A DNA stretch of 61,903 nt from Spirochaetales bacterium Spiro_09 (GTDB lineage: Bacteria > Spirochaetota > Spirochaetia > Treponematales > Treponemataceae), in contig LVBK01000022.1 in assembly GCA_001604385.1 (NCBI GenBank), positions 1 through 61,903 on the forward strand, read 5' to 3'. Shown here piece by piece: positions 1,440 through 57,098 of this stretch. The notes below the pieces were generated by a model. That model ran no database searches. It was not told where the DNA came from and saw only the letters and a list, made by a program, of their open reading frames with translations. The position numbers were made by a program, and so were the translations under genes. Every line of letters starts with the position of its first letter. Positions within the stretch are counted from its first letter, which is position 1.

Positions 1440-1468
1440 TGGACAGCTTTTTTTAATGGGAATATACT
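1440..1468 (+). promoter_or_regulatory. Promoter of MATE gene, near-leaderless
   Basis: TGGACA (1440-1445), a 17-bp spacer and TATACT (1463-1468). Only 10 nt separate the -10 box from the ATG at 1479, so the expected transcript has a 3-4 nt leader. No Shine-Dalgarno is present. Confidence 0.7.
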
Positions 1469-1478
1469 CTGCCTCACT

Positions 1479-2858
1479 ATGTCACACATCGATATTAAAA
1501 AAGGACCAATTGGTTCAACCCTCATCAAGCTCAGCGTGCCCGTCCTTGCCGGACAGGTTTTCAACCTTCTGTATAACCTGGTAGATACCTGGTTTATCGC
1601 CCGCATAGATACCACCGATCCCTGGCTTGTCGGCGCAACCGGTCTCGTGTTCCCCATTTTCTTTCTTTTCATGGCGACCATGTTCGGTATTTCGGGAGGC
1701 ATCTCTTCGCTGGTTGCGCGGGCAATCGGAGCGGGAAGGTCCGCAGAACTGGGAAAAACCATCGAAAGCGGTCTCGCGCTCGCGATTGCAGCGGGCATCC
1801 TGGTCCTGGCGATTTTCTATCCGACAACGGACTATCTGTTGGGTCTTTTTGGGGGCACCGATCTCATTCTCGAATACGGCAAAAGTTATTTGCTGTGGAT
1901 TTTACCCGCCGCGCCCTTCATGTTTTTGAATGCTGTATTCATGGGAGTCCTTCAGGGTGAGGGCCGAACCAAGCATATGATGATGGCAATGCTGAGCGGA
2001 ACCCTGGTCAATATCATTCTGGACCCGATACTTATCTTCTCTGCCGGTATGGGTATCGCGGGAGCCGGTTTTGCCACCTCGATCGGCAATATGGCAAGCT
2101 TTGTCTATCTGCTTGTCGTCTTTCTGAAAACCGGCTCTGAAGTTACCGTCGAATGGAAATGGCAACATGTGTCCCTCCCGGTTATCGCCGAAATTCTTCG
2201 GGTAGGAATTCCGCACAGTTTGATCAATTTCCTTTCCTCAATCAGTTTTATCTTTTACAACCGTATCATGATCGCTATCAATCCCATGATTCTGACATCC
2301 TTTACCCTGTACTCGCGTATAGAACAATTTTCGCTGGTACCGATCTGGTCTATGATGGGCGGTTTGGGGGCGATTGCGGGACAGGCGGCAGGTGCGGGAG
2401 ATTTCTCCAGGATGCGCCAGTCTGCACGTACGGCAAGTATTATGGGACTTGTAATCAACGGATCCCTGCTTGCGCTCTATGTATTATTTGGCAACCAGAT
2501 ATTCATGCTGTTTCAGAGTGACGCCGAGGTACTCTCCATTGCGCGGATAATTCTGCCCTGGATGGCGGGGGGAACCTTCGTATCGGTGCCCATATTTATG
2601 ATCGGTACCGTTATGACCTCGGCAGGCTTCGCAAGCAGGAATCTTGCCCTGACCGCGATCCGCATCTATGCCCTGAACGTACCGGCTTGTGCAATTGCGG
2701 CCGCGCTTTTCAGGGGACAATTGGCACCGGTCATGGCCGCAATATTCGGCTCTGCCATTATTGCACTCTTTATGATGATTGGCGCACACAAGGTATTCAT
2801 GAACGGCCTGGAAAGCGGCCGCCTGACAATCAAGTACGGGGCGAAACAAGCAGGATAA
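1479..2858 (+). CDS. MATE-family efflux protein
   Basis: Multidrug and toxic compound extrusion type cation-coupled antiporter of the inner membrane. The 459 residues form about 12 hydrophobic segments in two similar halves, beginning with the N-terminal LSVPVLAGQVFNLLYNLVDT segment typical of MATE proteins; a related helix recurs near residue 240 (LRVGIPHSLINF). Length is normal. The ATG at 1479 is supported by the promoter placed just upstream rather than by a ribosome binding site. The gene converges on the xylanase gene with a gap of only 13 bp and no recognisable terminator. The substrate cannot be told from sequence. Confidence 0.92.
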   Translation: MSHIDIKKGPIGSTLIKLSVPVLAGQVFNLLYNLVDTWFIARIDTTDPWLVGATGLVFPIFFLFMATMFGISGGISSLVARAIGAGRSAELGKTIESGLALAIAAGILVLAIFYPTTDYLLGLFGGTDLILEYGKSYLLWILPAAPFMFLNAVFMGVLQGEGRTKHMMMAMLSGTLVNIILDPILIFSAGMGIAGAGFATSIGNMASFVYLLVVFLKTGSEVTVEWKWQHVSLPVIAEILRVGIPHSLINFLSSISFIFYNRIMIAINPMILTSFTLYSRIEQFSLVPIWSMMGGLGAIAGQAAGAGDFSRMRQSARTASIMGLVINGSLLALYVLFGNQIFMLFQSDAEVLSIARIILPWMAGGTFVSVPIFMIGTVMTSAGFASRNLALTAIRIYALNVPACAIAAALFRGQLAPVMAAIFGSAIIALFMMIGAHKVFMNGLESGRLTIKYGAKQAG

Positions 2859-2871
2859 AGAAAAACATACC

Positions 2872-4269
2872 TTACAACGCGGCTTTCAGCAGGGCTACAG
2901 CGCCCTGCAACCCGGCAACGGCCGAATTACCTGCGGAATACAGGCCGTCACGGCTTTTCTTTGCCTCGAACAGGGCTTCCTGCAGAACCTTCAACCGCTG
3001 GACGTCAGTTTCCGTGCGGGTCGCTTCCTCTGCCCGGTCAATGAGTCTATTGAGCTCCTTCCAGGCTGCCGTCAAATCAACAAGGGCGAAATATGCAGGT
3101 TTTGCCTGGAAGTTTGTGTCCCACAACGAGGATGACTGATTCACGACAAAGGTATACTCGTCATTCAGGCCATCTTTCGATACATTGACAATTTTACCCC
3201 GACCCGAGCGGGCACTGCGCTCCAGAAAAAGCTTGAAAAGGGATGCGTATTGGTTTGCCTGCTGCTCAAGGATTAATGCGGAAGGATAATTGGTTTTTGC
3301 ACTGGTCGACACATCGATTTCGGTAATCGCCATCTCGTTGCATATGGCGTCGAATTTGTCATAGGAGGCAACCCAGGCCTCTGCAGTCGGGGACAATATA
3401 TTGTCATGCTCCTGCATGCCGATGCCGTCCAGGTTTCCTGCACGATAAATCGGTTCAAGAAGGGCAACAATACCGTCAGCCTTTCCCGCACTGTGCGTAT
3501 TATAGTCATTGTAATACAGCTTCATCTGGCTCTCGCCATACCCGGTACTGTATTTACGGGCAAACTCGAAGGCATAGGAAACATAGCGCTCGTCTCCATA
3601 GACGATAAACCAGTCGTTTTTCGATCTCCTGACCTTGCCCGATCTGTCATCAATTGCCTCATTGACCACATCAACGGCCTGAACCATACCTGGCCATCCT
3701 TCGTGCAGCTGGCGGATTATTTCCTTGATGTACCATTCCATCCGTTTGGTCATGATGTCGCGGCTGACATACGTACCGTCAGAAGTATATCCGGTGCGGA
3801 AAAATTCGGTCGGGGTCTGGGAATGCCACACCAGGGTATGTGCGCGAAAGCCGAAACCATGGCGTTTTGCCCAGTCAAGCTGGGCAATCAGATCCGGTGG
3901 GAATCGCACCACCGGTTGTGTTTCGGCAATCTCCAGTTTTTTGCCCCGCCGCGCCTTTTGGCTTGCCTCGGCGCTTGCCGCAATATCCAGGGTATACATC
4001 GGCTTCATATTGTTTCCCGGCGCCATGAAGTTCATGTGATGGGCGATCAGTTTCCCGCCTTCGGGATTCAGCGCGCGCGGGGAAGCTCCGGGAACCGGCA
4101 CATCGTCGGGAAGGGCAATATGCCGGTAGGAAAGCAGGCAGCCAAAGGAAAAGTCCTCCGCGAAAACATCCTTCAGGGCCGGCAGCTCTGTCTGCACCGA
4201 CTGGGCCGGTACCGGAAAGCACGCAAACAGGAAAAGAAATGCCACACCGATACCCAAAGTTCTTTTCAT
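2872..4269 (-). CDS. Secreted GH10 endo-1,4-beta-xylanase
   Basis: A glycoside hydrolase family 10 enzyme, which cleaves internal beta-1,4 bonds of xylan with retention. A signal peptide (about residues 1-22, ending PVPAQS) predicts export. The catalytic acid/base Glu lies in VDVVNEAID (about 202-210) and the nucleophile Glu in ITEIDVS (about 316-322). GIGMQEH and QAKPAYFAL are further GH10 landmarks. The last 60 or so residues form a helical, charged tail resembling FIVAR-type modules, not part of the catalytic barrel. The ATG lies one base after the stop of the upstream sugar transferase gene, so the two are cotranscribed. That pairing leaves open that the real substrate is a self-made or community polysaccharide rather than plant xylan. 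Confidence 0.9.
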   Translation of the reverse strand: MKRTLGIGVAFLFLFACFPVPAQSVQTELPALKDVFAEDFSFGCLLSYRHIALPDDVPVPGASPRALNPEGGKLIAHHMNFMAPGNNMKPMYTLDIAASAEASQKARRGKKLEIAETQPVVRFPPDLIAQLDWAKRHGFGFRAHTLVWHSQTPTEFFRTGYTSDGTYVSRDIMTKRMEWYIKEIIRQLHEGWPGMVQAVDVVNEAIDDRSGKVRRSKNDWFIVYGDERYVSYAFEFARKYSTGYGESQMKLYYNDYNTHSAGKADGIVALLEPIYRAGNLDGIGMQEHDNILSPTAEAWVASYDKFDAICNEMAITEIDVSTSAKTNYPSALILEQQANQYASLFKLFLERSARSGRGKIVNVSKDGLNDEYTFVVNQSSSLWDTNFQAKPAYFALVDLTAAWKELNRLIDRAEEATRTETDVQRLKVLQEALFEAKKSRDGLYSAGNSAVAGLQGAVALLKAAL

Positions 4270-4270
4270 C

Positions 4271-5590: not shown

Positions 5591-5619
5591 AATACCTGAG
5601 TATACAGGGATTTTGCCAT
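5587..5619 (-). CDS. Possible 10-residue leader peptide
   Basis: An 11-codon frame (MAKSLYTQVL, stop) starts 7 nt after a second TATACT at 5632-5627. It ends with a TGA that overlaps the ATG of the sugar transferase gene as ATGA. Its geometry is the same as in the leaderless genes of the window, so it may be a leaderless upstream ORF translationally coupled to the transferase. Coding function is unproven and the peptide has no recognisable motif. Confidence 0.35.
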   Translation of the reverse strand: MAKSLYTQVL

Positions 5620-5632
5620 GATTAAAAGTATA
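5599..5632 (-). promoter_or_regulatory. Tandem -10 boxes of the transferase operon
   Basis: Two TATACT hexamers read on the minus strand, at 5632-5627 and 5604-5599. The first is 7 nt before a mini-ORF ATG (5619) and the second 8 nt before the transferase ATG (5590). No good -35 is evident for either. Confidence 0.5.
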
Positions 5633-5662
5633 TTCCTGCCAGGATATCAAAAAAGCGACAGT

Positions 5663-7636: not shown

Positions 7637-10600
7637 CTAAAATTCTGCATATAAGTACAGCGTTTTCGGCGGGATGACCACCTCGCGACCGGCGAGGTCA
7701 CCGGGTCGACGAGCATCCAGTACCGGATGCCATGCCATATCCGGTGCCGGAGAAGGAAGCATCGCCCATGCGTCCTCGAAACCCGGATTCACCACGATAC
7801 ACGCACGATCCCAGCTGTCGCCCAGATCCTTCCCCCCGGCAAGAATCCAGGCAAGCGGAAGCGGTTGCAATGGAGCGGAACGAACGGCCACATCGGAAAA
7901 CCGTACATGATGCAAGACCTCCTCGGCGGTTTCAAGCAAAAACAGCGGATGGCTTTTCCGCACCTCGATGAGCGCGCGTACATACTGAACCAACTCCTGT
8001 TTGTCCGCGCACCGCGTCCAGTCAAGACCGTTTAGGCGGTCACACAGAGTATACGAATTGTGACAGAACGCCCGGCTCTTGTCGTGCGTCCAGGCAACAT
8101 CGCAGAGCGCCGACGAATGTTCGGCCATAATATCGGAGGGAATTTCCTTCGTTCTCATGAATTCCATACCGGCATGCAGGAGCGGAATGCCCTGGGAAAA
8201 CAGCACCAGGGCAATGGCCATCCGCTGAAGGCGTTCGTACCAAGCCTCGCTCTTGCCCTGCTCGACCAGGGACAACTTGTCATAGAGCGTGAAATTATCG
8301 TGGACCTCAGTATAATTGACGGACACGCCGGTTCGCGTTCCCCAGGGATTGCAGTTGACAGTCCCTTCAACCAGACGGTTATGCACCTCCGGATGATACA
8401 TGGTTCCGACAAGACCGAACTTGACGGACTCAAGGCGTCTGCCATCATGGACATACCCGCCCTCTTCGGCGCAGAACGAGGACCCCTTGACCGCGCAACG
8501 GAAAGCATCATTGAAAAAGCCGTAGGCAGGAAGCTTGCGTGATTCCGTCATGGCCGCACCGATCATTTTATGGCCATGGTACATAAGCCAGCCCTCTCCG
8601 TACAGCAATACATCGCTCTTGATGGCGCAAAGGGCCCCGGCGATCGCGTTCATGGTAGAGATGTCATGAAGACCCATCAAATCGAAACGGAAGCCGGCCA
8701 CCCGGTATTCCCGAAGCCACCAGACAAGGCTGTCAATCATGTAGGTTCGGAAAGCGGGACGTTCGCTCGCCGTATCGTCGCCCGCCCCGGAATACGAGTC
8801 GAGGCGAAAATAATATCCCGGGACGCAGACGGACAGGGGATGACGCGGGGCATCGGGCACATGGTTGAATACCACGTCAAGGATGACGCCAATACCGCTG
8901 TCGGCAAAGGCCTTGATCAGCTCTTTCAGCTCGCGGATACGGACACAGCCGTTCCAGGGGTTCGTGGCATAGGAGCCTTCGGGAACGCGATGAGACCAGG
9001 GATCATACCCCCAGTTGAAAAGACCTCCCCTGAGCTGCCCGGCATAGGAGGCATCATTGCAACGGGTCTCGTCAACGCTGGTAAAATCTGCGACCGGAAG
9101 TAACTGCACATGGGTAATTCCAAGCGAACGGAAATGATCGAATCCGGTCGGAACAACCCGACCGGAAGAACTTTCCCTATACGTCCCCTTTTCAACCAGC
9201 CCCCGGTACGTTCGCCTGAGGGACTCGCTCCCTGTCCAGGAGGGGGAGGAGGTGGCATCGGCGACGTGAAGCTCATAGATAACCGCTTCGTTCGGTCGCG
9301 CAAGGCTAGGAGGCCGGACGTTTTCCCAACCGGAGGGGTCAGTCATTCGCGGGTCGAGCACCATGGAGCGCTCCCCGTTTACCCCGCTTGCCAGGGCAAA
9401 CGGATCGGCCGTTTCTCGCACCACACCGTGAACCAGCACCCGGTAGCGGTAATACATGCCGTGAAGGTCCCCCGCGAGGGTATGCACCCACACAAGCGAA
9501 TCGGAAAGCCGTGTCATCGGATGCCAGGCGCAGGCCTCGCCGGAGGAGCCGTCCCGATACAGAACCAGCGTCACCGAGCGCGCAGTTGGTGCCCAGAGCG
9601 CAAAATCGGTATGCGTTGCCGTCCATCGGGCTCCCTGCAGGCCGGAAGCAGGCAGCGACGACCGAAAATGGTCGCCGTCAAAAAACCATTCAAGCGCTGC
9701 GGCATTGGTGCCGCCGCCATGATGAGCGCGCAATTTGCCCGCACGGAGCAGGGACTCAAGATACCGATCCTGATGGAGGGCACCGCACCAGGGATTATCA
9801 AGTTCATGCGGGGGAAAGGCGTCAACGATCCAGTGCTCGGGAAATAAATTCCTCGGCAATACATGGCTGAACTGTGCCTGTTGCCCGGCAGAACTTCCCG
9901 TCCAGACAGTCAGGGGAACCCCGGGAATGATCGAATGCCCGTTGACTTCCAGAAGCGGCAAGGAATCGCCTTCGGCGGTCCACACCAGGGTTGACTTCAG
10001 TACCGACGGCCGTTCCCGCACAATCGATATATCCATTTTCCAGCCGGGTCCGAAAACTGCAACCGCGGACCAGTTATCCACGCGGGCGGGCAAATGCGGA
10101 GCAAAGACAATACGGTGTTCGTCCAGACGGGGAGCAAAACCCGTCACCTGCTGCCAGAGCACGCGGATAAACTCGGCCAGCCCCCAGGTGCGCGAATACG
10201 CGCCGGTACACAGGGCTTCCCCGTCAAGCGAACGGGCCTGGATTGAACCGCTCAGGGTACCCGGAACGCCAATTTCCAGGATCTGTCGGGCCGTATTACG
10301 CAGCAGGGCATCGGCAGAAACCGGCAAACAGGCGGCATGGCGCGTTGCCGGCAGGGACACGGAGGCCTCGATATACGCTCCGGTCAGCCAGGGCGCTATG
10401 GTTCCGTTGTGAACGGACGCGTCCTTGTGGTGGCGCGGTGATTCCTCATGAAAGGGATGAAACAGGGGATCGTCGGGAGAAAGAGTGTACAAACCATGGG
10501 GATTGATGAGTTCGCGATTGACGGTTTCCATAATGGCCTCGCGCAGCGGCGCGTCAAGGAGCCACTCCTCCTCATCCAGAATCGATGAGGCGGTAATCGC

Positions 10601-12031
10601 AAACAGCTGATTCGGCCGTACCCGGAAGTCTTTAAGCCATTCGCCCGTCGGCCCCGGAGGAAGATGATCCGCAAGCGCATTCCGATCCCCGCACCAGAAC
10701 AAAGCCCTGAAGGACTGGCGAAGACGCATGGACAGCTCGTCGCGCTGTCTCATTTTGATCGCGTCCCCTTCACGCCGCGCGAAGCGTACTGCAATGCGAA
10801 GGGCGGTATACCACAGGGCCTGAATTTCACAGGCACGGTCTCCGCGCGGCGTCCAGGCTATTGACCCGTCAATTTCTGTGTCCATCCAGGTCTCGGAGTC
10901 TCCATGAAGCAAAAAACCGTGCGCATCACAGCGGGCGCACGACGAATCGATAATCACATCAAGCACGGGGATCAGCTCGTCTGCCAGGCCCAGGTCGCCG
11001 GTATACTGAATATATTCCCATACCGACCGGACAAAAAGGAGACTCGCATCTGCACTGTTATAAATTGTCCGCCCATCGGCGTATACGCAATTGGGTATTC
11101 TGCCATAATGGGGACTGGACGCATCCCGACACTGGTGGTGCGCAAGACCCGTTAATACCTGCCGGCCTTCACCGAATTGCCCGCCGGCAAGCAAGGTCCC
11201 TGCAAGTGACAGGCAGGTATCCCGACCCCAGCTTTCCCGCTGCCAGGGAAGGGCCGCCCACAAGAGCGGATGCGCGGGCTGCCGGGAGCACACCATCATC
11301 CAGCCGGTAAAATGGGCCCAACGAACAGCGGAATCGAAGCGTGCATCCCCGGTAAAAATAGCGCAACTGTCCAGGAAGGCCTCAATCTTCTCCCGATGAT
11401 TGAAAATTCCCCGATCGCGGGCCAGACGTACCGCCTTGCGCTCCGCTCCCTCGCACGTATCCTCGAATACAATATACACAGAAAAATCGGTTGCCTGCGG
11501 GTGTCCATGACGTACGATACACGTCCTCCGGTCAGGAACATCGAGCGTGAAAGGGAATTCGGATGCCATGGCACGGCCGCAACCGTCGCTCCACACAAAA
11601 ACCCCGGTTCCGGGAACCTCTTTCCATGCCCCGGAATCCATGTGGCCTGCGCGGGAAACCGTACTGCCTTCCGGGAACAGCAGTCCGGGATACACTCCGT
11701 CGGTTCCGGAAAGCGACACAAACAGGGCTTGTTCATCGAGCAAAAGGGATATTTCCAGATCGGGGAGAGGTTTCCGTCCCGAACCGAACTCGGGAAAATG
11801 AATCCGGCAACCCTCCGGGCGAACATCCGTCCACAGGGCATTCGACCGCCATATATCGGCGTAACCCTCTTCGCACAGGAAAAAATCGCACAGACAGGTG
11901 GTATTTCCCCGGACATAGCCTCCGGTATGCAATCCCTCGCCACACAGGTCGGCATGAAGATCAAGAAATCCGCTGGTACGGTCTGTCCAGGCAAACCGCC
12001 GTCCGCTTCCGGCTGGCACACGTATTGTCAT
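7637..12031 (-). CDS. Fused amylo-1,6-glucosidase / pullulanase-type debranching enzyme
   Basis: A 1464-residue protein joining two debranching modules. Residues about 1-720 match the glycogen-debranching GDE_C/GH133 (alpha/alpha) type, with RESWGRDTCLSLAG, GRIPNCVYADG, SETWMDTEIDG and HNGTIAPWLTGAY. Residues about 770-1464 are a type I pullulanase: a CBM48-like region (ATHTDFALWAPTA), the NWGYDP signature, nucleophile Asp in GFRFDLMGLHD, acid/base Glu in LLYGEGW and the transition-state Asp in TEVHDNF. No signal peptide is seen, so it is probably cytosolic and degrades stored or imported alpha-glucan. The start at 12031 is supported by a promoter 7 nt upstream. clpP follows 51 bp later. The reading frame is continuous across both modules. 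Confidence 0.92.
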   Translation of the reverse strand: MTIRVPAGSGRRFAWTDRTSGFLDLHADLCGEGLHTGGYVRGNTTCLCDFFLCEEGYADIWRSNALWTDVRPEGCRIHFPEFGSGRKPLPDLEISLLLDEQALFVSLSGTDGVYPGLLFPEGSTVSRAGHMDSGAWKEVPGTGVFVWSDGCGRAMASEFPFTLDVPDRRTCIVRHGHPQATDFSVYIVFEDTCEGAERKAVRLARDRGIFNHREKIEAFLDSCAIFTGDARFDSAVRWAHFTGWMMVCSRQPAHPLLWAALPWQRESWGRDTCLSLAGTLLAGGQFGEGRQVLTGLAHHQCRDASSPHYGRIPNCVYADGRTIYNSADASLLFVRSVWEYIQYTGDLGLADELIPVLDVIIDSSCARCDAHGFLLHGDSETWMDTEIDGSIAWTPRGDRACEIQALWYTALRIAVRFARREGDAIKMRQRDELSMRLRQSFRALFWCGDRNALADHLPPGPTGEWLKDFRVRPNQLFAITASSILDEEEWLLDAPLREAIMETVNRELINPHGLYTLSPDDPLFHPFHEESPRHHKDASVHNGTIAPWLTGAYIEASVSLPATRHAACLPVSADALLRNTARQILEIGVPGTLSGSIQARSLDGEALCTGAYSRTWGLAEFIRVLWQQVTGFAPRLDEHRIVFAPHLPARVDNWSAVAVFGPGWKMDISIVRERPSVLKSTLVWTAEGDSLPLLEVNGHSIIPGVPLTVWTGSSAGQQAQFSHVLPRNLFPEHWIVDAFPPHELDNPWCGALHQDRYLESLLRAGKLRAHHGGGTNAAALEWFFDGDHFRSSLPASGLQGARWTATHTDFALWAPTARSVTLVLYRDGSSGEACAWHPMTRLSDSLVWVHTLAGDLHGMYYRYRVLVHGVVRETADPFALASGVNGERSMVLDPRMTDPSGWENVRPPSLARPNEAVIYELHVADATSSPSWTGSESLRRTYRGLVEKGTYRESSSGRVVPTGFDHFRSLGITHVQLLPVADFTSVDETRCNDASYAGQLRGGLFNWGYDPWSHRVPEGSYATNPWNGCVRIRELKELIKAFADSGIGVILDVVFNHVPDAPRHPLSVCVPGYYFRLDSYSGAGDDTASERPAFRTYMIDSLVWWLREYRVAGFRFDLMGLHDISTMNAIAGALCAIKSDVLLYGEGWLMYHGHKMIGAAMTESRKLPAYGFFNDAFRCAVKGSSFCAEEGGYVHDGRRLESVKFGLVGTMYHPEVHNRLVEGTVNCNPWGTRTGVSVNYTEVHDNFTLYDKLSLVEQGKSEAWYERLQRMAIALVLFSQGIPLLHAGMEFMRTKEIPSDIMAEHSSALCDVAWTHDKSRAFCHNSYTLCDRLNGLDWTRCADKQELVQYVRALIEVRKSHPLFLLETAEEVLHHVRFSDVAVRSAPLQPLPLAWILAGGKDLGDSWDRACIVVNPGFEDAWAMLPSPAPDMAWHPVLDARRPGDLAGREVVIPPKTLYLYAEF

Positions 12032-12038: not shown

Positions 12039-12044
12039 AGTATA
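12039..12044 (-). promoter_or_regulatory. -10 box of debranching gene (leaderless)
   Basis: TATACT on the minus strand, 7 nt before the ATG at 12031. A weak TTGTCC lies upstream at a short 14-bp distance. No Shine-Dalgarno sequence is present. Confidence 0.6.
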
Positions 12045-13763: not shown

Positions 13764-13772
13764 ATTGTAGCA
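13764..13772 (-). promoter_or_regulatory. Extended -10 of lipoprotein gene
   Basis: TGC followed by TACAAT on the minus strand (TACAAT at 13769-13764), 7 nt before the ATG at 13756. The layout predicts a leaderless transcript. Confidence 0.65.
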
Positions 13773-16193: not shown

Positions 16194-16542
16194 AACTGAG
16201 GGAAGACACCAGAGAGCCGCCGACCACCACAAGCGCACCGGAATGGATACCCCGCTGATCAAAGCCCTCGCCCACCCCGGAGAAAATCGAGACAAGACCG
16301 GCTACGGAAATTCCAATGCCGCCGAGCATGGCGACAAAGGAGGCGGTCCGCACCGGTTTGTGCCAGCGGGTATGCACAATGCCGCCAAGCACCTGTGCCT
16401 CAACCGGAGGCGGCAGGACGGATACATCCGGTTCCTCGACGTTTTGGTCCGGCAGAACGGGCTGCACAGGCTCCTGCGCTACGGCCCTGCTCGACAGCGA
16501 TAAAAAGCACAGCGCCATGCACATAAAAAGTATTCGGATCAT
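16156..16542 (-). CDS. Small exported protein with C-terminal membrane segments
   Basis: A 128-residue protein with an N-terminal signal sequence (about 1-22, ending RAVAQ). A proline- and acid-rich stretch (about 23-50) and two hydrophobic segments follow (about 66-88 and 102-120). No family was recognised. The start at 16542 is chosen because TATACT is centred about 9 nt upstream in the short gap after the ZIP gene; longer readings of the frame run into that gene. It may be an envelope accessory protein of the neighbouring OmpA-like gene, with which its 3' end overlaps tail to tail by 38 bp. Confidence 0.6.
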   Translation of the reverse strand: MIRILFMCMALCFLSLSSRAVAQEPVQPVLPDQNVEEPDVSVLPPPVEAQVLGGIVHTRWHKPVRTASFVAMLGGIGISVAGLVSIFSGVGEGFDQRGIHSGALVVVGGSLVSSLSSILFEGLSASPE

Positions 16543-16548: not shown

Positions 16549-16554
16549 AGTATA
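16549..16554 (-). promoter_or_regulatory. -10 box of small exported protein gene
   Basis: TATACT on the minus strand, 6 nt before the ATG at 16542, lying in the 23-bp gap behind the ZIP transporter gene. It predicts a leaderless transcript. Confidence 0.6.
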
Positions 16555-18831: not shown

Positions 18832-18838
18832 GGCTCGC

Positions 18839-18871
18839 ATTCTACCGAAAAGTCGTCAAATAGTGTATACT
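18839..18871. promoter_or_regulatory. Divergent promoters of pth and pyrophosphatase
   Basis: On the minus strand TAGAAT (18844-18839) is 7 nt before the pth ATG. On the plus strand TATACT (18866-18871) is 13 nt before the pyrophosphatase ATG at 18885, giving a leader of about 6 nt. Neither gene has a Shine-Dalgarno sequence. Confidence 0.6.
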
Positions 18872-18884
18872 AATACGAAATACA

Positions 18885-22216: not shown

Positions 22217-22249
22217 ATAGTAGCATAAGCGGTATGTTTTTACTATAAT
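22217..22249. promoter_or_regulatory. Divergent promoters: membrane protein and BMP operon
   Basis: On the minus strand TGC TACTAT (TACTAT at 22222-22217) lies 6 nt before the ATG at 22210. On the plus strand TATAAT (22244-22249) precedes the BMP gene, whose ATG at 22275 has a normal leader with AAGGGAG at 22261-22267. Confidence 0.6.
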
Positions 22250-29311: not shown

Positions 29312-29340
29312 ACTATAACGGATTTGAAAAAAAGGGACAA
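29312..29340 (-). promoter_or_regulatory. lysS promoter (leaderless)
   Basis: On the minus strand: TTGTCC (29340-29335), 17 bp, TATAGT (29317-29312), then 8 nt to the ATG at 29303. Confidence 0.75.
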
Positions 29341-30856: not shown

Positions 30857-32161
30857 TCAAATCTGCCGCTTGTCGATTACCCGCTTCGCCTTGCCGATCG
30901 ACCGTTCGATACTCTTCGGTTCAACCAGCTTGACCCGCAGATTGATGCCCAGCTTGCTCTTCATCACCGCTTCTATTCGGCTCCGCAAATGCTCCATATC
31001 TTTCGTTTCGTCGGAGAACTCGCTTGCATTGACCTCGACATGCAGTTCGGCCTCGTCAAGGTGGGTCTGTGCGCTGCGGTCAACGATAATCAGATAATTA
31101 GGATCGACTCCCTGAATTTCGATGAGCGCATGCTCGATCTGGCTCGGGAATACGTTGACGCCGCGAATGATCAAAAGATCATCGGTACGGCCGAAGAGAC
31201 GGTGAATCCGTCGGGTGGTTCGTCCGCAGCCGCAGCGCTCGGGAATAATAAAGGTAATGTCGCGGGTGCGATACCGGATAAGGGGAGTTCCCTCTTTGGT
31301 AATGGTTGTAATGACCAGTTCGCCCTTTTGACCTTCGGGAAGAACCGCGCCGGTTGTCGGGTCGATAATTTCCGGATACCACAGGTCCTCGTTCACATGC
31401 ATGCCGTACTGACCCTCGCATTCGAAGGCGACACCCGGACCGGTAATTTCGGTCAAGCCATAAATGTCGTAGGCCTTGATGCCCCAGGCTTTTTCAATTT
31501 CCTTTCGCATGTTCTCGCTCCAGGGTTCAGCCCCGAAGCAGCCCGAACGTATACCCAACGAGGTCGGATCAATTCCCATTTCCCTGGCCTGTTCCGCCAT
31601 GTACAGGGCGTATGAAGGGGTACAGGTAAAAATGGTGGACTTGAAATCGCGCATCAGCATGAGCTGCTTTTCCGTATTGCCTGACGAAATGGGAATAATG
31701 GTCGCGCCGATTTTTTGCGCCCCGTAATGGGTTCCCAGTCCGCCGGTAAAAAGGCCATACCCGTAGGCATTCTGCACAATATCGTTACGCGTGCCTCCGG
31801 CGCCCGACAGGGTCCGCGCCATGCCTTCCGCCCAGTCATCCATATCGCGCTGGGTATAGGCGTCGACAACCGGAGTGCCGGTAGTACCGCTCGACATATG
31901 GATTTCCACAATCTCCGCCCGGGGAACCGCCAAAAGTCCGTAGGGATAGGTGTCCCGAAGATCATCCTTCGAGGTAAAGGGCAGCCTGGCAATGTCGGCA
32001 AGGCTCTTGATGTCCCCAGGTTTGACACCCGCTGCGTCAAGTTTCGCGCGATAAAACGGAACATTGTGATATACCCGTTCAACCAAATTTTTAAGCCGGG
32101 CGAACTGCAGCGTATGCAGTGCCTCCGTATTCATACATTCCTGTTCGGGATTCCAGATCAT
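30857..32161 (-). CDS. Phenylacetate-CoA ligase family protein, copy 1
   Basis: AMP-forming acyl-CoA ligase of the PaaK type, 434 residues: activates phenylacetate or a related aryl acid to its CoA thioester, or runs in reverse to make ATP. Visible motifs are [15 protein letters not shown] (about 89-103, P-loop), [15 protein letters not shown] (about 233) and YRTRDITF (about 299), with the C-terminal [18 protein letters not shown]. The start [10 protein letters not shown] at 32161 matches the family and lies 9 nt after TATACT; a longer frame runs through that box. It has its own promoter and is followed by the ACT and LacI-like genes. Confidence 0.88.
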
Positions 32162-32170: not shown

Positions 32171-32176
32171 AGTATA
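32171..32176 (-). promoter_or_regulatory. -10 box of paaK copy 1
   Basis: TATACT on the minus strand, 9 nt before the ATG at 32161. No convincing -35 was found; the repeat at 32230-32300 lies upstream. Confidence 0.55.
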
Positions 32177-32306: not shown

Positions 32307-33617
32307 TCAGTCTTTTGGGCGGCGGTCCTCGACCCGCTTCGCCTTGCCCTCGGATACCGGCAGCGAACCCGGCTGCTTCAGTTCAACCTGCGGCCGCACG
32401 GTAATCAGGGAGGCCATTTCATCCCGCAACCGCTCGCGCAGGGCATTTATTACCCGGGAATCGTCTGCAAAGACCTCGGATGTAATTTCAACCTGAACCG
32501 TCAACTTGTCCAGGACACCTTCCTTGTCAACAATAATGAAATAGTTCGCACCCACACCCTTGGTGCGGAGCAGAACCTCTTCGATCTGGCTGGGAAAGAC
32601 ATTGACTCCGTTAATGATAAGCATGTCATCGGTGCGTCCGGTAAAACGGGCAAGGCGGCGGTGAGTCCGTCCGCAACGGCAGGGTCCGGGAATAATGCGG
32701 GTCAGGTCGCGGGTCCGGTAGCGGATCAGGGGCATTGCGTCGCGGCACAGGATGGTGATGACCAGCTCTCCTATTTCGCCCTCGGGAACCGGTTCAAAGG
32801 TTTCAGGATCCAGAAGCTCGAAAATATAGCGGTCTTCCCACATATGCAGGCCGTCACGGAAGATGCACTCAAAGGCTACGCCTGGACCGTTCATCTCGCT
32901 CATGCCGTAGCAGTTGTACACCTCGATACCCAATTTGTCCTGAATCTTGCACCGCAGCTCCTCGGAATGGGGTTCCGCGCCGGTAATGGCCTTTTTCAGG
33001 GCAAGGGAAGAGCGATCATAGCCTTCCTGTTCAATAGCCGCGTGCAAATGCAACAGATAGCTCGGAGTCGCATGAATAATGGTAGTTCCGAAGTCCTGCA
33101 TGAATTTGAGCTGGCGCAAGGTATTGCCCGCGCTTGTCGGAATAACCATCGCACCCATCAGCTCGGCGCCATAATGAAAGCACAAACCTCCGGTAAAGAG
33201 GCCGTAGGTCATCATGTTCTGGATAATGTCGTGACGGGAACCGCCTGCGGCAACAAGACAGCGCGCCATGGTGTCGCTTGCGGTATCAAGGTCCTTCTGG
33301 GTCAGGTAAATGACCGTCGGCGTTCCGGTCGTTCCGCTCGAGGCGTGTATGCGAACAACTTCTTCGCGGTTAACTGCAAGAAGGCCAAAGGGATAGGCTT
33401 CCCGGAGGTCTCCCTTGGTGGTAAAGGGAAGCTTGCGCAAATCGGCAAGACTTTCAATATCATCCGGAGAATTGATACCGCAGGAAGGAAGCCGTTTCGA
33501 ATAAAACTCTGTCTTCAAGGCCTGGGCAATCTGTTTTTTCAGACCCTCAAGCTGAATCCGCTCGATTTCCGCACGGGGAGCCGTCTCGATCGCCTTGTCG
33601 CGGAACGGAACGGTCAT
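32307..33617 (-). CDS. Phenylacetate-CoA ligase family protein, copy 2
   Basis: A second PaaK-type acyl-CoA ligase, 436 residues, clearly homologous to the copy at 30857-32161 but with a different N-terminus (MTVPFRDKAIETAPR). Motifs are [15 protein letters not shown] (about 93-107), [15 protein letters not shown] (about 237) and YRTRDLTRI. It overlaps the iorB stop by four bases (ATGA), so it belongs to the iorA-pepF-iorB unit and probably acts on the aryl-CoA made there. Two paralogues may have different acid specificity (for example phenylacetate and indoleacetate), which is an inference. Confidence 0.9.
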   Translation of the reverse strand: MTVPFRDKAIETAPRAEIERIQLEGLKKQIAQALKTEFYSKRLPSCGINSPDDIESLADLRKLPFTTKGDLREAYPFGLLAVNREEVVRIHASSGTTGTPTVIYLTQKDLDTASDTMARCLVAAGGSRHDIIQNMMTYGLFTGGLCFHYGAELMGAMVIPTSAGNTLRQLKFMQDFGTTIIHATPSYLLHLHAAIEQEGYDRSSLALKKAITGAEPHSEELRCKIQDKLGIEVYNCYGMSEMNGPGVAFECIFRDGLHMWEDRYIFELLDPETFEPVPEGEIGELVITILCRDAMPLIRYRTRDLTRIIPGPCRCGRTHRRLARFTGRTDDMLIINGVNVFPSQIEEVLLRTKGVGANYFIIVDKEGVLDKLTVQVEITSEVFADDSRVINALRERLRDEMASLITVRPQVELKQPGSLPVSEGKAKRVEDRRPKD

Positions 33618-39098: not shown

Positions 39099-39104
39099 TA
39101 CAAT
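39099..39104 (+). promoter_or_regulatory. -10 box of alr (leaderless)
   Basis: TACAAT, with TGTACA (39076-39081) 17 bp upstream. Only 5 nt separate the box from the ATG at 39110. No Shine-Dalgarno is present. Confidence 0.6.
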
Positions 39105-39109: not shown

Positions 39110-40252
39110 ATGCGGGCAACTCGAGCTATCATACATCTGGACAATCTCTCACAAAACATTTCACGGATAAAAAAAGCGGTACACGAAAAAGTAACGGTTT
39201 GCATACCGGTTAAGGCCGATGCCTACGGTCACGGAGCGATACCGGTCGCAAAAACTGCCCTGGAGGCCGGCGCAGATTGCCTCGCTGTCGCGACGGCCGA
39301 TGAGGGAATCGAACTCCGAAAGGCGGGAATAGACTGCATCATTTTGGTCCTGGGAATCGGATTGCCGGAGGAAATACCGCTTATTGTCGGTTATGGCCTC
39401 ACGCCCATGATTACCGACCGGGAAGTGGTCGCTGCGTTACAGCTTGAATCCGCCCTGCAGGGCAGAAGGACGTCCTGTCACCTGAAAGTCGACACCGGGA
39501 TGGGCCGCATCGGCTGTCTTCCGGAAGAAGCCGCCGACCTTGCCGCTGAAATTTGCCGGAACCGGAACCTTGTGCTGTCCGGAACCGCGACACATCTTTC
39601 GGTTTCAGATTCACCCCTGCAAGATGACGAACACTATACGACCACCCAGCTTGCGCGTTTTACCCAAGCCCTGGAACACATACGGGCGGCAGGCATCGAT
39701 CCGGGACTGGTGCATGCCTCAAATTCCGGTGCGATCATTTCCCGTCCCGACGCTCATTTCGACATGATCAGGCCCGGCATCCTGGTATACGGGTATCAAC
39801 CCTCTGCGGACTGCCCGACTCGCATTCCGGTTACGCCGGTCATGGAGCTGGAAACGCGGCTCGTTTCAGTCCGTTCACTTCGCGCAGGCTCCGCAGTATC
39901 ATACGGCAGAACCTGGGTTGCAGGACAGGATACCGTTATCGGCACATTGCCGATCGGCTACGCTGACGGGCTTCACCGGAACCTGTCACCCGGTTTGAAG
40001 GTGGAAATTTGCGGGGACACCTATCCGGTTGTCGGCCGGATATGTATGGATCAGTGCATGGTAGACCTTGGTCCTCATTCTCGTATCAAGCGGTGGGAAA
40101 AAGTGACCATTTTCGGACCGGGTCTGGTTTCTGCCTCCGATGTCGCCAGGGTGGCGGGAACAATACCATACGAAATTACCTGTGCCATCAATAACCGCCG
40201 GGTTCCCCGGGTCTACACGGGAACACCCGCTTACACAGCGGAAAAGCGGTAA
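39110..40252 (+). CDS. alr: Alanine racemase
   Basis: PLP enzyme that interconverts L- and D-alanine for peptidoglycan. The 380 residues include the PLP lysine in CIPVKADAYGHGAI (about residue 35), HLKVDTGMGRIG (about 125-136), the catalytic Tyr in SYGRTWV (about 264) and VGRICMDQCMVDL (about 306). The start at 39110 is the only one that retains the family N-terminus. The 3' end overlaps the convergent mutarotase-like gene by 22 bp. Confidence 0.95.
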   Translation: MRATRAIIHLDNLSQNISRIKKAVHEKVTVCIPVKADAYGHGAIPVAKTALEAGADCLAVATADEGIELRKAGIDCIILVLGIGLPEEIPLIVGYGLTPMITDREVVAALQLESALQGRRTSCHLKVDTGMGRIGCLPEEAADLAAEICRNRNLVLSGTATHLSVSDSPLQDDEHYTTTQLARFTQALEHIRAAGIDPGLVHASNSGAIISRPDAHFDMIRPGILVYGYQPSADCPTRIPVTPVMELETRLVSVRSLRAGSAVSYGRTWVAGQDTVIGTLPIGYADGLHRNLSPGLKVEICGDTYPVVGRICMDQCMVDLGPHSRIKRWEKVTIFGPGLVSASDVARVAGTIPYEITCAINNRRVPRVYTGTPAYTAEKR

Positions 40253-43325: not shown

Positions 43326-43332
43326 ACCCCAC

Positions 43333-43376
43333 AGTATACCAGCGAATTTGCATAATCTTCAATTCCCTGCTAGTAT
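43333..43376. promoter_or_regulatory. Divergent leaderless promoters of DUF4954 and PNP genes
   Basis: Minus strand: TTGAAG, 18 bp, TATACT (43338-43333) with an upstream TGG (extended -10), then 7 nt to the ATG at 43325. Plus strand: TGC TAGTAT (43371-43376), then 7 nt to the ATG at 43384, with a weak TTGCAT 17 bp upstream. Neither start has a Shine-Dalgarno. Confidence 0.75.
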
Positions 43377-43383
43377 TCACCCT

Positions 43384-50289: not shown

Positions 50290-50318
50290 AGTGTGCGCCA
50301 GCTTTTTCCGATTGTCAA
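50290..50318 (-). promoter_or_regulatory. Cyclase promoter (leaderless)
   Basis: On the minus strand: perfect TTGACA (50318-50313), 17 bp, CACACT (50295-50290), then 8 nt to the ATG at 50281. The -10 is weak, the -35 strong. Confidence 0.6.
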
Positions 50319-52689: not shown

Positions 52690-52695
52690 AGTATA
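52690..52695 (-). promoter_or_regulatory. Promoter of rubredoxin-ferredoxin operon
   Basis: TATACT on the minus strand with TTGCAT 16 bp upstream. It gives a leader of about 12 nt that includes a Shine-Dalgarno sequence, so this transcript is not leaderless. Confidence 0.6.
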
Positions 52696-52744
52696 GGACT
52701 TGCCTCAGGAAATGCAAACGGATTGATCGGGAATATGGTTCTGA

Positions 52745-53320: not shown

Positions 53321-53799
53321 GCACTCTCCCTGATTGTCTGGAACAGGGGGGTATGTTTATGATATTTCGGTGCTATTGGGTCATTTAAATGAAATAAAAG
53401 TTCAAGGGGCATCGGATAGGTTTCAAATACGAGAGATACAGTCTGACCTTCATCAAGAAAAAATGAAATCCCTGCAATATCTTCATAACGTGAAAAAATT
53501 TGATCCCACTGACAGATTACTGATTGCTGCCCCGGTATAACATCCAAAATCAGATATTCTTTCATCCGATTAAATTCAAAAAACTCAGAACCGTTAACCT
53601 GTACCTGAATAGGCTTTTTGGTAAGAGGACCAATCAATGCAATAGGTATATCAGGATACACAATTATTCTTGCCATACCCTCTGCAAGAGGTGGTCGAAC
53701 AGGTAGTTCAGTCAAGGCAGTTGAAGCAGGTGTGACAGCATCCTGAGCAAATAGCACTGAAAACATCGACATTGTAATAATCAAATATATTATTTTCAT
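53317..53799 (-). CDS. Small secreted protein, second gene of protease operon
   Basis: A 160-residue protein with a signal peptide (about 1-18, ending SVLFA). The mature part is beta-rich: ARIIVYPDIPIALIGPLTKK and IQVQVNGSEFFEFNRMKEYL (about 45-85). It resembles DUF2846-type domains, whose role is unknown. The start at 53799 is set by AGGAG 7-11 bases upstream; a longer reading extends into the protease gene. It begins 13 bases after the protease stop and overlaps the lipoprotein gene. Confidence 0.6.
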   Translation of the reverse strand: MKIIYLIITMSMFSVLFAQDAVTPASTALTELPVRPPLAEGMARIIVYPDIPIALIGPLTKKPIQVQVNGSEFFEFNRMKEYLILDVIPGQQSVICQWDQIFSRYEDIAGISFFLDEGQTVSLVFETYPMPLELLFHLNDPIAPKYHKHTPLFQTIRESA

Positions 53800-53812
53800 A
53801 CATTTCTCCTGA

Positions 53813-55786
53813 TCAAAAAAAGGAAAATGAAAAAGACAACGCAGCAAGCCCGGAGCCAGCAATACATACCTGGCTGATCGCACTGAAGGTTTCCATAGAC
53901 GAAAGATCCTGTGATCTAAATGCTCTGTCACGAAAATAGAAGGCAGCAGCTCCCAATCCTACACACAGAATACTGTCACGAATTCGTGCTTTGACTACCG
54001 GGTTCATTGGAATTTTAACTTGCTTCACATCAAGAACCGAGGAGGTTTCTTTCCGGATATCGATGGTTGAAATAAAGACCCTATACTTGGGATGCGTAAT
54101 TTTCAGCTGATATTGGCCACCGTCCAGTTCAATCTTACCCGATTCAGGAATAAGCCCCATATCGGTTTCATCAAGAAGGTAGATGGACCCCGGAATAAAA
54201 TTAATCAACTCCAAATACCCCTTTGACATCCACGAGCTGGTATCCAAAACAGTACCACGATCAACATTGAGCTGAATGTTAACCGTCTTGAAATACTTTT
54301 CATTTTCAGCAACGATATCCCAGGGACCTTTAGGTATTAAAAGTGTTACCGGATCATCCAGGATAATAACCTCTCCGGCGCGAGACAGAGTAATTTTAGT
54401 TCCCGCAGGTAAAACTGGTAACAGCGGGACTGCAATTAGTTCCACCCCGGTAAACGTCAAACGTTTTTCTGTATTTTTGTTGACCTGCACTTCCATGTTC
54501 CTGAAAGTATATCCAGAAAGAGATAATTCAATTTCATGAATACCCGCAGGGATCATACTTGAATACGGTGTTTTCCCCGAAAAGACTCCGTTTATCTTGA
54601 CATTCGCACCTTCAGGACGCGATGAGATAGTAAGTTTCCCGTTTATGGGCATCAATGAAACTGTGATTGCCAGGGTATCAGAAATAGTCCGATCCAATTC
54701 AAGTACAACTGTAGAACGGGCAGAATCCGTTTCCACTACCAGTTTTTCAATATCACCAGACAAGGTATAGGCGACAGGAACAGTTCCAATGGGCTTACCA
54801 TCCTTATACACAACGGCATTCTCGTCAGAATCAAGAATAACTTTTCTGCCGACGAGCTGGTGTATGAGGCCTGAAGAAACAGAAGACTTCTGCCTGATAA
54901 CAGTGTTTTGTCCACCGGAAGAAAGAACCACACCTGATTCACGCAAAAATTGCAAAACAGTACCCGAATCTACAGAAAAAAACATATTATTGCCGTTTCG
55001 CATTTGACCCACATTTATACCAAGGACATGCCCTGACTTGTCGACAAGCGGTCCGCCGGAATTTCCCGGATTGAGTGTAGCTGTGTGTTGAATGGAAAAA
55101 TCTTCGGCTCGTACTGCAGAAATATTTCCGATTGTAACTACAACTTCCTGTGACTCCAATCCACCCTCAAATAACCCCGGAAGTGAATATCCAAAAGCCA
55201 CAACCTGTTCACCGCTTTCAGCAGGACGATCACGGAGGGCCAACGGAACCGACATGTTGCCAGCCAGCGTTTTCGATTGAAGAACTGCAATATCTTTCTT
55301 GCCATCTTTCGCCAACAGAACAGCATCCTCATGCCGCTTTCCCTCATGATAAATATGAATTGTGTCAGTGGATTCCCGCAGCATACCTGCAATATCAGTT
55401 CGAAGACGGTACTTTTCACTGTTGCTTAATATATCTTTAGGAATTGAGCTGGTCACAAAATACTTGATCGACTCAATTAACTGTCTGATTGTGCCTTCCT
55501 CGTCAAAGATAACGTGTGCATTCGAGGCTATAATTCCCGTATCATCCAGAATAACACCACTACCAGTCGACATTGTCTGAAAAGAATCGAGAAACTTGCG
55601 TCCACTATATGACTCTACTTTCCGCCACAAGGGAATCTCAGACGATTTTACAGAATCTATGTACACTACACGTGCTATCAATACAACAGACTGCTTGATA
55701 TTTTGGATGTCAGAAGTTTCAAGCGAGAAGGCAAGACATGTACAACAAAATACCATTATTAAACCGGTCATTTTCTTTACATTCAT
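53813..55786 (-). CDS. Secreted trypsin-like serine protease with PEGA domains
   Basis: A 657-residue exported protein. Signal peptide at about 1-22. A chymotrypsin-fold S1/DegP-like protease follows, with the catalytic His in IIASNAHVIF (about 94), Asp in KKDIAVLQS (about 166) and Ser in NPGNSGGPL (about 246). Residues about 395-470 form a PEGA domain (SSRPEGANVKINGVFSGKTP), with one or two further PEGA-like segments to about 600, and a hydrophobic C-terminal anchor (about 610-657). It is probably periplasmic or surface exposed. TTGACG-17 bp-TAGAAT lies 9 nt before the ATG. Cotranscribed with two small exported proteins. Confidence 0.83.
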   Translation of the reverse strand: MNVKKMTGLIMVFCCTCLAFSLETSDIQNIKQSVVLIARVVYIDSVKSSEIPLWRKVESYSGRKFLDSFQTMSTGSGVILDDTGIIASNAHVIFDEEGTIRQLIESIKYFVTSSIPKDILSNSEKYRLRTDIAGMLRESTDTIHIYHEGKRHEDAVLLAKDGKKDIAVLQSKTLAGNMSVPLALRDRPAESGEQVVAFGYSLPGLFEGGLESQEVVVTIGNISAVRAEDFSIQHTATLNPGNSGGPLVDKSGHVLGINVGQMRNGNNMFFSVDSGTVLQFLRESGVVLSSGGQNTVIRQKSSVSSGLIHQLVGRKVILDSDENAVVYKDGKPIGTVPVAYTLSGDIEKLVVETDSARSTVVLELDRTISDTLAITVSLMPINGKLTISSRPEGANVKINGVFSGKTPYSSMIPAGIHEIELSLSGYTFRNMEVQVNKNTEKRLTFTGVELIAVPLLPVLPAGTKITLSRAGEVIILDDPVTLLIPKGPWDIVAENEKYFKTVNIQLNVDRGTVLDTSSWMSKGYLELINFIPGSIYLLDETDMGLIPESGKIELDGGQYQLKITHPKYRVFISTIDIRKETSSVLDVKQVKIPMNPVVKARIRDSILCVGLGAAAFYFRDRAFRSQDLSSMETFSAISQVCIAGSGLAALSFSFSFF

Positions 55787-55795
55787 AGTATCGCA

Positions 55796-55824
55796 ATTCT
55801 AGACGGGGTTTTTTCTATCGTCAA
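55796..55824 (-). promoter_or_regulatory. Protease operon promoter (near-leaderless)
   Basis: On the minus strand: TTGACG (55824-55819), 17 bp, TAGAAT (55801-55796), then 9 nt to the ATG at 55786. Confidence 0.75.
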
Positions 55825-55856
55825 GAAAAACCTGTCCTGTTGCTTCACCGAACTTC

Positions 55857-55885
55857 TTGAACATGTCTTTCATTACCGGTACAAC
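55857..55885 (+). promoter_or_regulatory. ROK gene promoter
   Basis: TTGAAC (55857-55862), 17 bp, TACAAC (55880-55885), then 7 nt to a GTG at 55893. This favours GTG 55893 over the ATG at 55863, which would lie inside the promoter. Confidence 0.5.
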
Positions 55886-55892
55886 TATAGTC

Positions 55893-57098
55893 GTGATTAC
55901 AACCAACAGGCTCTATGAAATAAATTCCTCGCGCATTATGGAACATATCTGGCTGAACAAGGGTATCAGCCGCATCGCGGTAGCCGAAAACCTGGAACTG
56001 GACCGCTCGACCATTACCAAGGTCGCCCGTACGCTCATAGCCTGCGACTTTATCAAGACAACGGGAAAATATCGGGGTAAACCGGGAGCGGGGCGCCTTG
56101 CAACCTCTCTGGAAATCAACGCGGACTTTGCGCTTATTCTGGGAATTGAACTGCAGACCGAGTACATAAAAACGGTGCTCATCGATATGGCCGGCACCGT
56201 GCGGGCAACTGCACATCTTCCTTTCACCGGTGACACTGCCGATCTTTTACCATCTTTGCGTACCTGCATTTTACTTGCAAAAAACGAAGCAGCACAATTC
56301 GGAATTCGCATCGCGGGAATCGGCATCGGACTCTCCGGTATCGTTGATACCTATGAGGGGACCATAATCAACTCACATCCCCTCGGCATTCACCAACCAC
56401 TTGCCCTGGGTCCGCTCCTGGAAAAAGAAACCGGCATACCGGTGTACATAGAAAATGATGCGAATTGCTGCTGCTGGGGAGAACTGGCCTTTCGCCCGGC
56501 CGTTACCGACAGGAATATTCTCGCGCTCCTGGGTGAATTCCGGAATATTGACATCGGCAGCAACCGCATGGCCGGAACGGCATTTGGTCTGGGGGTGGCA
56601 ATCAGGAAAACAGTATTCCACGGGGACAGCTTCACCGCAGGGGAATTCCGCAGCCTTTTGTATGACCACAAAAATCCCAGCCACTGCCAGTTTTCGCTGA
56701 CAGACGAAGAAGCACGCCAGTTACCGGGTAACCGTGAATTATTACATCGTCTTTTCGAGGAACTTGCACTGAATATATCCCTATTGGTCAACTGCCTCGA
56801 CATCACACAGATCATCATAGCCGGAGACTATGCCCGCTATTGCCCGGAAATCGGTGAACTGCTGGAAGCGAACATACAAAAAAACTGGATTTATCAAAAC
56901 AAAAAAAAGTGCAGGATACAGCCCTCTCCCGATGCGGAGAATGCGGTATGCATGGGTGCGGCCGGCCTTTTTCTGCGGAAACTTTTCACCGTGCCGGGAA
57001 TGACCGATCATACGGAAGAACAAGTAGGCAGTATTTTGCTTGATCGGGTGTTCACCTCTCTGGGTATACGCGCCGAAACAGATGCCACAGCCATCTGA
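55893..57098 (+). CDS. ROK-family transcriptional regulator
   Basis: A sugar-responsive XylR/NagC-like regulator, 401 residues from the GTG at 55893. The N-terminal winged helix (about 1-70) has TNRLYEINSSRIMEHIW and RSTITKVARTLI. The kinase-like ROK domain has GIGLSGIVDTYEGTI and YIENDANCCCWGELAF, but the usual zinc motif CxCGxxGC and the phosphate loop DxGxT are missing, so it is not a kinase. A longer reading from 55863 is possible; the promoter fits the shorter one. The 3' end overlaps plsY tail to tail by 47 bp. Confidence 0.8.
   Translation: MITTNRLYEINSSRIMEHIWLNKGISRIAVAENLELDRSTITKVARTLIACDFIKTTGKYRGKPGAGRLATSLEINADFALILGIELQTEYIKTVLIDMAGTVRATAHLPFTGDTADLLPSLRTCILLAKNEAAQFGIRIAGIGIGLSGIVDTYEGTIINSHPLGIHQPLALGPLLEKETGIPVYIENDANCCCWGELAFRPAVTDRNILALLGEFRNIDIGSNRMAGTAFGLGVAIRKTVFHGDSFTAGEFRSLLYDHKNPSHCQFSLTDEEARQLPGNRELLHRLFEELALNISLLVNCLDITQIIIAGDYARYCPEIGELLEANIQKNWIYQNKKKCRIQPSPDAENAVCMGAAGLFLRKLFTVPGMTDHTEEQVGSILLDRVFTSLGIRAETDATAI

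Follow-up and report, generated by a model that had tools for sequence, protein, structure and literature searches.

Sigma70-type promoters abutting start codons and predicted leaderless mRNAs in a treponeme-like spirochaete and many of its relatives

The window analyzed here is an entire contig of 61.9 kb (LVBK01000022.1) from the draft genome of Spirochaetales bacterium Spiro_09 (2.72 Mb, 83 contigs). It contains 16 gene starts, distributed from position 1479 to position 55893, for which a sequence-only reading had claimed that a -10-like hexamer lies close to the start codon and that the Shine-Dalgarno (SD) site is missing, as expected of leaderless transcripts (Table 1). All 16 positions are start codons on the implied strands (15 ATG and one GTG, the latter at 55893), and the presence of -10 boxes at starts devoid of SD is confirmed. 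None of the 16 has an SD 4-mer (GGAG, AGGA or GAGG) at -17..-5 of the listed start, and a -10 box scoring at least 5 bits (below, a good box) lies at -16..-11 in 12 of 16, with a scoring matrix that was partly trained on this genome. In 500 shuffles of the upstream regions, such boxes precede 1.29 of the 16 starts on average and 5 at most, and the background is 84 of all 2038 ATGs in the window. The -35 elements described at 17 bp for 1479, 29303, 50281, 55786 and 55893 are indeed found at this spacing, and the two starts singled out as looser, 1479 and 18885, have their boxes at -16 and -19.

Table 1. The 16 starts in the window and their predicted promoter elements. Box positions are those of the first base of the -10 hexamer, counted from the start codon.
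Start	Strand	Gene	-10 hexamer	-10 coordinates	Box position	-35 hexamer	-35 coordinates	Spacer (bp)	Remarks
1479	+	MatE gene	TATACT	1463..1468	-16	TGGACA	1440-1445	17	predicted leader about 3-4 nt
5590	-	sugar transferase gene	TATACT	5599..5604	-14				
12031	-	glycogen debranching-type gene	TATACT	12039..12044	-13				
13756	-	no Pfam match	TACAAT	13764..13769	-13				
16542	-	small open reading frame (ORF), no Pfam match	TATACT	16549..16554	-12				weak coding status
18831	-	pth	TAGAAT	18839..18844	-13				
18885	+	DHH/CBS gene	TATACT	18866..18871	-19				
22210	-		TACTAT	22217..22222	-12				weak box; stronger TATGCT at -17
29303	-	lysS (class I)	TATAGT	29312..29317	-14	TTGTCC	29335..29340	17	
32161	-	paaK	TATACT	32171..32176	-15				
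39110	+	alanine racemase gene	TACAAT	39099..39104	-11				
43325	-	DUF4954 gene	TATACT	43333..43338	-13				
43384	+	purine nucleoside phosphorylase gene	TAGTAT	43371..43376	-13				4.1 bits
50281	-	cyclase gene	CACACT	50290..50295	-14	TTGACA	50313..50318	17	weak box, 3.7 bits; -35 matches 6/6
55786	-	trypsin-like/PEGA gene	TAGAAT	55796..55801	-15	TTGACG	55819..55824	17	
55893	+	ROK gene (GTG start)	TACAAC	55880..55885		TTGAAC		17	very weak box, 1.9 bits

Genes were called blind, with a caller that relies on start-codon type and coding statistics and receives no promoter or SD information, in the window and 516 kb of other stretches of the same genome (578 kb in total, 446 genes); pieces L001, L002, L013 and L030 of this genome were omitted before counting. 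The motif TAnnnT was counted at -15..-11 of the blind starts and in two flanking control windows. It precedes 32 of the 110 divergent genes of Spiro_09 (controls 6 and 10), 7 of 62 genes behind a middle-sized gap (controls 5 and 9) and 5 of 155 operon-internal genes (controls 5 and 6). Before the divergent genes, the motif peaks at -13 and -12 (13/110 each) and falls to 2 at -11, on a background of 2.4 per position; the peak is weak for co-directional genes with long gaps and absent for operon-internal ones, which show a peak of SD 4-mers at -14..-9 instead. The claim of the sequence-only reading that genes inside operons use SD sites holds, with SD shares of 0.87 and 0.82 in the mixture model described below. 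Across nine spirochaete sets (pooled totals, here as well as for the family, order and class, were summed from per-genome counts), the motif is found before 110 of 448 divergent genes (controls 41 and 43), 25 of 559 operon-internal genes (controls 32 and 28) and 219 of all 1632 genes (controls 127 and 131), so that the box is confined to possible first genes of transcription units. The corresponding numbers in Escherichia coli are 1 of 46 divergent genes (controls 5 and 6) and 1 of all 148 genes (controls 13 and 16).

A good box at -16..-11 is found in 9 of 47 blind genes of the window, compared to 4 of 47 in the control window, and this density is higher than that in the rest of the sample (38/385, control 19), as would be expected if the pattern were peculiar to this window or if AT-rich upstream regions had clustered here by chance. 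However, the peak is recovered in the pooled stretches of this genome and in other genomes, as well as in whole-genome counts of a promoter pattern against a decoy (see below), and the probability of such an explanation is close to nil.

The identity of the box was assessed with a three-way mixture model (background, SD and a free-floating hexamer) that was fitted, with the -35 region hidden, to 432 genes of the genome (11 of 443 genes, in which the upstream side has no neighbor, were dropped). The model learned the hexamer TATA(C/A)T, with 0.56 of the mass at -14..-12 and a log-likelihood of 556; two shuffles of the input gave log-likelihoods of 63 and 58 and scattered hexamers, the largest single position reaching 0.14 (at -14, in one shuffle). 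A box nearer than -12 is impossible in this model, and the drop at -11 is visible in the histogram of blind starts. The leaderless class includes 12 of the 47 counted genes of the window; of 138 genes assigned to it, one has an SD site, in an assignment that itself competes with SD. Among these 138 genes, TTG is found at a spacer of 17 in 38 and at a spacer of 18 in 16, compared to about 2 at most other spacings. In the nine sets, 84 of 270 called genes have TTG at 17, 29 at 18 and 8 at 16, with 3.6 per spacing outside 16-18; the counts at 17 are 0/13 in E. coli, 2/20 in G170 (presumably Brachyspira murdochii) and 9/22 in G025, an AT-richer member of the family. With blind starts and no model, 1073 possible first genes have 88 sites of the form TTG-17/18-TAnnnT with the box at -16..-11, whereas the remainder of their upstream regions predicts 17.3; the numbers are 1 site before 112 genes in E. 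coli (0.95 expected), 3 before 104 in G170 (3.8 expected) and 10 before 99 in G025 (2.9 expected). Given that this spacing is independent of the box model, the boxes are identified as promoters. A mapped sigma70 promoter of Treponema denticola has the same two hexamers, TTGACT and TATACT (the text of that paper swaps the -10 and -35 labels), although with a leader of 14 nt (PMC9481697).

The same observation bears on the possibility that the AT-rich box is a translational signal, such as an S1-type enhancer, rather than a promoter. For other phyla, it has been suggested that AT-rich stretches before genes without SD serve as S1 sites (PMC5397173). Such a role is contradicted by the TTG at 17-18 bp in the nine sets, and operon-internal genes, as noted above, show no excess of the box; we therefore consider this explanation very improbable. 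A small test of whether the box also serves stable RNA genes gave, for 30 tRNAs of the nine sets, 5 boxes, 3 of these with TTGACA or TTGACC at 17 bp. A bare count of TATA(C/A)T-to-ATG distances, without gene calls, shows a bump of no more than about two-fold.

At the usual spacing, transcription from a -10 box with the first T at -12 would begin at the A of ATG, and from a box at -13 one base earlier. Half of the total mass of box positions falls on -12 and -13 (0.295 and 0.214). A pyrimidine (C or T) precedes ATG in 73%, 69%, 86% and 60% of genes in the -12, -13, -14 and -15 groups, respectively, compared to 65% among SD-led possible first genes; among the strict pattern matches listed for four of five genomes (see below), C or T precedes ATG in 133 of 150 (G039 34/34, G103 36/38, G214 29/34 and G198 34/44), by a hand count restricted to the matches themselves. 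Judging from promoter geometry, the products are likely to be mRNAs with leaders of 0-3 nt.

The fixed geometry, the -35 element at 17 bp, the missing SD site, the restriction to possible first genes and, for three genes, deep conservation (see below) all point in the same direction: sigma70 promoters that abut start codons most probably produce leaderless or near-leaderless mRNAs in this genome, mixed with SD-led genes. In the proposed mechanism, housekeeping promoters of the sigma70 type (TTGnnn - 17 bp - TATA(C/A)T), in which the -10 hexamer begins 12-15 nt before the start codon, would direct RNA polymerase to begin at the A of AUG or 1-3 nt upstream, giving a leaderless or near-leaderless mRNA. 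The ribosome could then bind the 5'-terminal AUG directly, by analogy with the initiator-tRNA/IF2 route known from other organisms. Operon-internal genes would begin via SD sites or coupling, so that both initiation modes would coexist in the genome, and individual genes might switch mode during evolution.

Alternatively, the mRNAs might carry very short leaders of 3-10 nt and be bound by the ribosome as stub-leader molecules that are not truly leaderless. Two starts of the window fit this description: the box of 1479 at -16, and that of 18885 at -19, for which the predicted leader of about 6-7 nt is short but not strictly absent. The -15 boxes are accompanied by A at -3 in 54% of the cases, which suggests ATT|ATG starts and, together with the low share of C/T at -1 in this group, leaders of 3-4 nt for boxes at -15 and -16. 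Many transcription starts of Leptospira were mapped 2-10 nt before the start codon (PMC5243855). Still, the modal box positions, -12 and -13, predict that transcription usually starts at the A of ATG or at the base that precedes it, and short leaders as the general rule appear rather unlikely.

The true start codons could also lie downstream of those listed, behind an ordinary SD leader. The blind caller picked 12 of the 16 starts and differs at 16542, 32161, 55786 and 55893; the start at 55786 is not confirmed by this caller, which favors 55573, and the start at 55893 is uncertain, with 55863 favored. The motif-aware caller shifts 13756 (to 13732 in the mixture model), 55786 and 55893; at 39110, the mixture model favored SD, being unable to place a box nearer than -12. 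Three genes, lysS, pth and paaK, which were selected because they look leaderless in the window, argue against such misplacement. Of 80 lysS loci, 59 have an in-frame ATG with a strict box at -15..-11 (equal-width control windows 6, 11, 8 and 10), and a box at -16..-11 is present in 65; the length of the N-terminus varies among treponemes, and the start codon travels with the box. The box at -16..-11 is found for pth in 17 of 20 relatives (control windows 2, 4, 8 and 11) and for paaK in 16 of 20 (control windows 4, 4, 4 and 3), and most orthologs of both genes align from residue 1 or 2, with the same ATG. The orthologs without a box have an SD site instead in 2 of 3 cases for pth and in all 4 for paaK (6 of 7 overall). 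Systematic misplacement of starts thus appears very improbable. The lineage of the genome was itself placed via the lysS relatives because no 16S rRNA gene was found in the draft assembly.

Several observations weigh against a leaderless interpretation or limit its reach. With the mixture model fixed, E. coli still receives 13 leaderless calls among 148 genes, and the 432 genes of Spiro_09 give 68 calls when shuffled versus 78 in reality, with some sets showing more shuffled than real calls, so that assignment of individual genes is unreliable; the many calls in shuffled sequences are probably due to the removal of SD sites by shuffling together with the small weight of the background in the model. 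In Spiro_09 itself, the excess of the box is clear for divergent genes only: co-directional genes far from their neighbors have it in 13 of 105 cases (controls 14 and 10). There is no clear preference for ATG over GTG and TTG (129/138 vs 539/603). The far-upstream controls of pth are high (8/20 and 11/20); another conserved box lies there, perhaps that of the divergent neighbor. Ortholog pairs in all fetched stretches are both leaderless in 12 of 188 cases, with 4.6 expected (p about 0.0008), a signal that shrinks to 10 of 92 for possible first genes (7.0 expected, p about 0.10) and to 8 of 73 when the same-genus pair is removed from these (6.6 expected, p about 0.30). These pair statistics imply that the leaderless state turns over and that deep conservation is limited to some genes.

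Because of the E. coli and shuffle controls, per-gene mixture calls were not used for the lower estimate of prevalence, which is derived from motif-blind starts with the flanking-window, operon-internal and E. coli controls. In the nine sets, blind boxes exceed controls by no more than about 5-6% of genes. When the mixture is fitted to each genome separately, the leaderless share is 11-17% in the nine sets (17% in Spiro_09), 4% in G025, 3% in G170 and 2% in E. coli. By these estimates, leaderless genes would make up 5-17% of the total and 20-32% of the divergent genes. The term 'widespread', as applied earlier to leaderless transcripts, is apt in that the pattern is genome- and lineage-wide, but it refers to a minority of genes, roughly a fifth to a third of the divergent ones.

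Leaderless mRNA as such is already known in bacteria, and the lineage is not entirely new to it. Differential RNA sequencing of Leptospira interrogans identified about 440 genes with a primary start at most 10 nt from the start codon, about half of these less than 2 nt (PMC5243855). Leptospira is likewise a spirochaete with near-leaderless genes, although from another order and with measured starts; that study found sigma54 elements and no other motif, whereas a clear TTG-17-TATA(C/A)T promoter is recognizable here, with transcription starts predicted from DNA. A 2011 survey by Zheng et al. took TANNNT about 12 bp before the start codon as a mark of leaderless genes and scored 6 of 18 spirochaete genomes as positive, with 1.8-6.9% of genes (PMC3160421); the 5-17% obtained here, depending on the method, overlaps with that range at the low end, and the genes were traced one by one in relatives. 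In Actinobacteria and Deinococcus-Thermus, too, leaderless genes occur side by side with SD-led ones and have their -10 box equally far from the start codon; they account for about 19% and about 39% of genes, respectively (PMC3160421), and Spiro_09 is at or below the first of these values. GeneMarkS-2 sets apart bacteria that use leaderless transcription as a class of their own (Lomsadze 2018, cited in PMC9581028), in the available description of which spirochaetes are not named. The searched literature, mostly of the non-subscription kind, contained no report of leaderless transcription in Treponema, its family or its order; two T. pallidum papers use 'leaderless' for peptides and in the title of a reference only (PMC9200625, PMC12687308). 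In another study, transcription starts were identified from T. pallidum RNA-seq data with ANNOgesic (PMC12223175). The suggestion of the sequence-only reading that the pattern is not established for this lineage is only partly right: it agrees with the searched literature as regards Treponema and its order, but leaderless transcription is established in the spirochaete Leptospira interrogans. Its leaderless interpretation remains the best one, genome- and lineage-wide and with SD-led operon genes, a clear promoter signature and a lineage-wide footprint.

From these findings, promoters and start codons of treponemes, a group with few mapped promoters in the literature encountered, can be predicted genome-wide by a rule that is open to testing. 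They also add another branch to the bacteria in which leaderless and SD-led initiation coexist. In treponemes, gene finders built around SD sites probably place many starts wrongly. Leaderless mRNAs react differently to some inhibitors of initiation, for example, kasugamycin (PMC9581028; PMC5230787). The lineage pattern, with the box kept, expanded or lost, allows comparison of the evolution of initiation modes over orthologs.

The distribution of the pattern was surveyed at two levels. In the sampled genomes, blind TAnnnT counts before divergent genes are 12/38 in G008, from the same genus (controls 6 and 3), 6/38 in G014 (3 and 3), 10/50 in G030 (1 and 3), 13/46 in G046 (7 and 6), 9/50 in G055 (4 and 3), 11/45 in G045 (8 and 9), 7/36 in G064 (2 and 5), 10/35 in G182 (4 and 1), 9/38 in G025 (7 and 9) and 11/42 in G170 (13 and 15). 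We take G014 to be T. brennaborense, G030 T. pallidum, G045 Gracilinema caldarium and G064 Spirochaeta thermophila. In addition, 198 genomes of the phylum were scanned for the strict pattern TTG-N20-TATA(A/C)T-N6-ATG and a decoy with N16; the strict pattern overlooks most promoters and favors AT-richer genomes, so that its counts should not be read as proportions, and leaderless genes may exist where it is absent. The 20 genomes of the family yield 369 matches versus 62 for the decoy (11 versus 2 in Spiro_09 itself), five other genomes of the order 133 versus 24, and seven other genomes of the class 64 versus 14. G030 has no matches to either pattern (0 versus 0), though it is positive in the blind test. 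There is no enrichment in the seven genomes of family f7, presumably Borrelia (9 versus 11). The other 159 genomes of the phylum give 1072 versus 816, including 453 versus 316 in the 29 genomes of f19, presumably Brachyspira, 59 versus 37 in the four of f12, 29 versus 14 in the single one of f35 and 78 versus 10 in the two of f47; the remaining 123 show no enrichment (453 versus 439). The pattern thus reaches across the family, the order and the class, and extends neither to the f7 genomes nor to most other members of the phylum. The f47 genomes (G198, 44 versus 4; G214, 34 versus 6) stand on another, distant branch of the phylum in which this promoter-to-ATG geometry is also frequent.

Of the matches in the five other genomes of the order, 105 (versus 15 for the decoy) belong to G039, from family f5. 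The 34 matches listed among these 105 are all different sequences, and three matches in fetched DNA precede ORFs of 174, 481 (lysS) and 736 amino acids. This is perhaps a strongly leaderless genome; the 41 kb available (18 genes) are too small to train the caller, and its extreme status follows from pattern counts. Leaderless initiation might be an old trait of the entire class, kept at genes such as lysS for as long as the order has existed, greatly expanded in G039 and f47, and lost in f7. We consider this scenario possible but doubtful because the 123 other phylum genomes, which count against it, show no enrichment. If it is true, many treponeme start codons and promoters would need re-annotation, given that G030 falls in the leaderless group in the blind test.

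Two divergent intergenic regions of the window, 18832-18884 (53 bp) and 43326-43383 (58 bp), appear to contain back-to-back promoters, both of which seem to be of the leaderless type in the case of 43325/43384. Two neighboring paaK-like genes, about 50% identical, differ in this respect: 30857-32161 appears leaderless and 32307-33617 is SD-led. Finally, the gene at 7637-12031 encodes a protein of 1464 residues that combines an amylo-alpha-1,6-glucosidase domain with a CBM48/alpha-amylase half.

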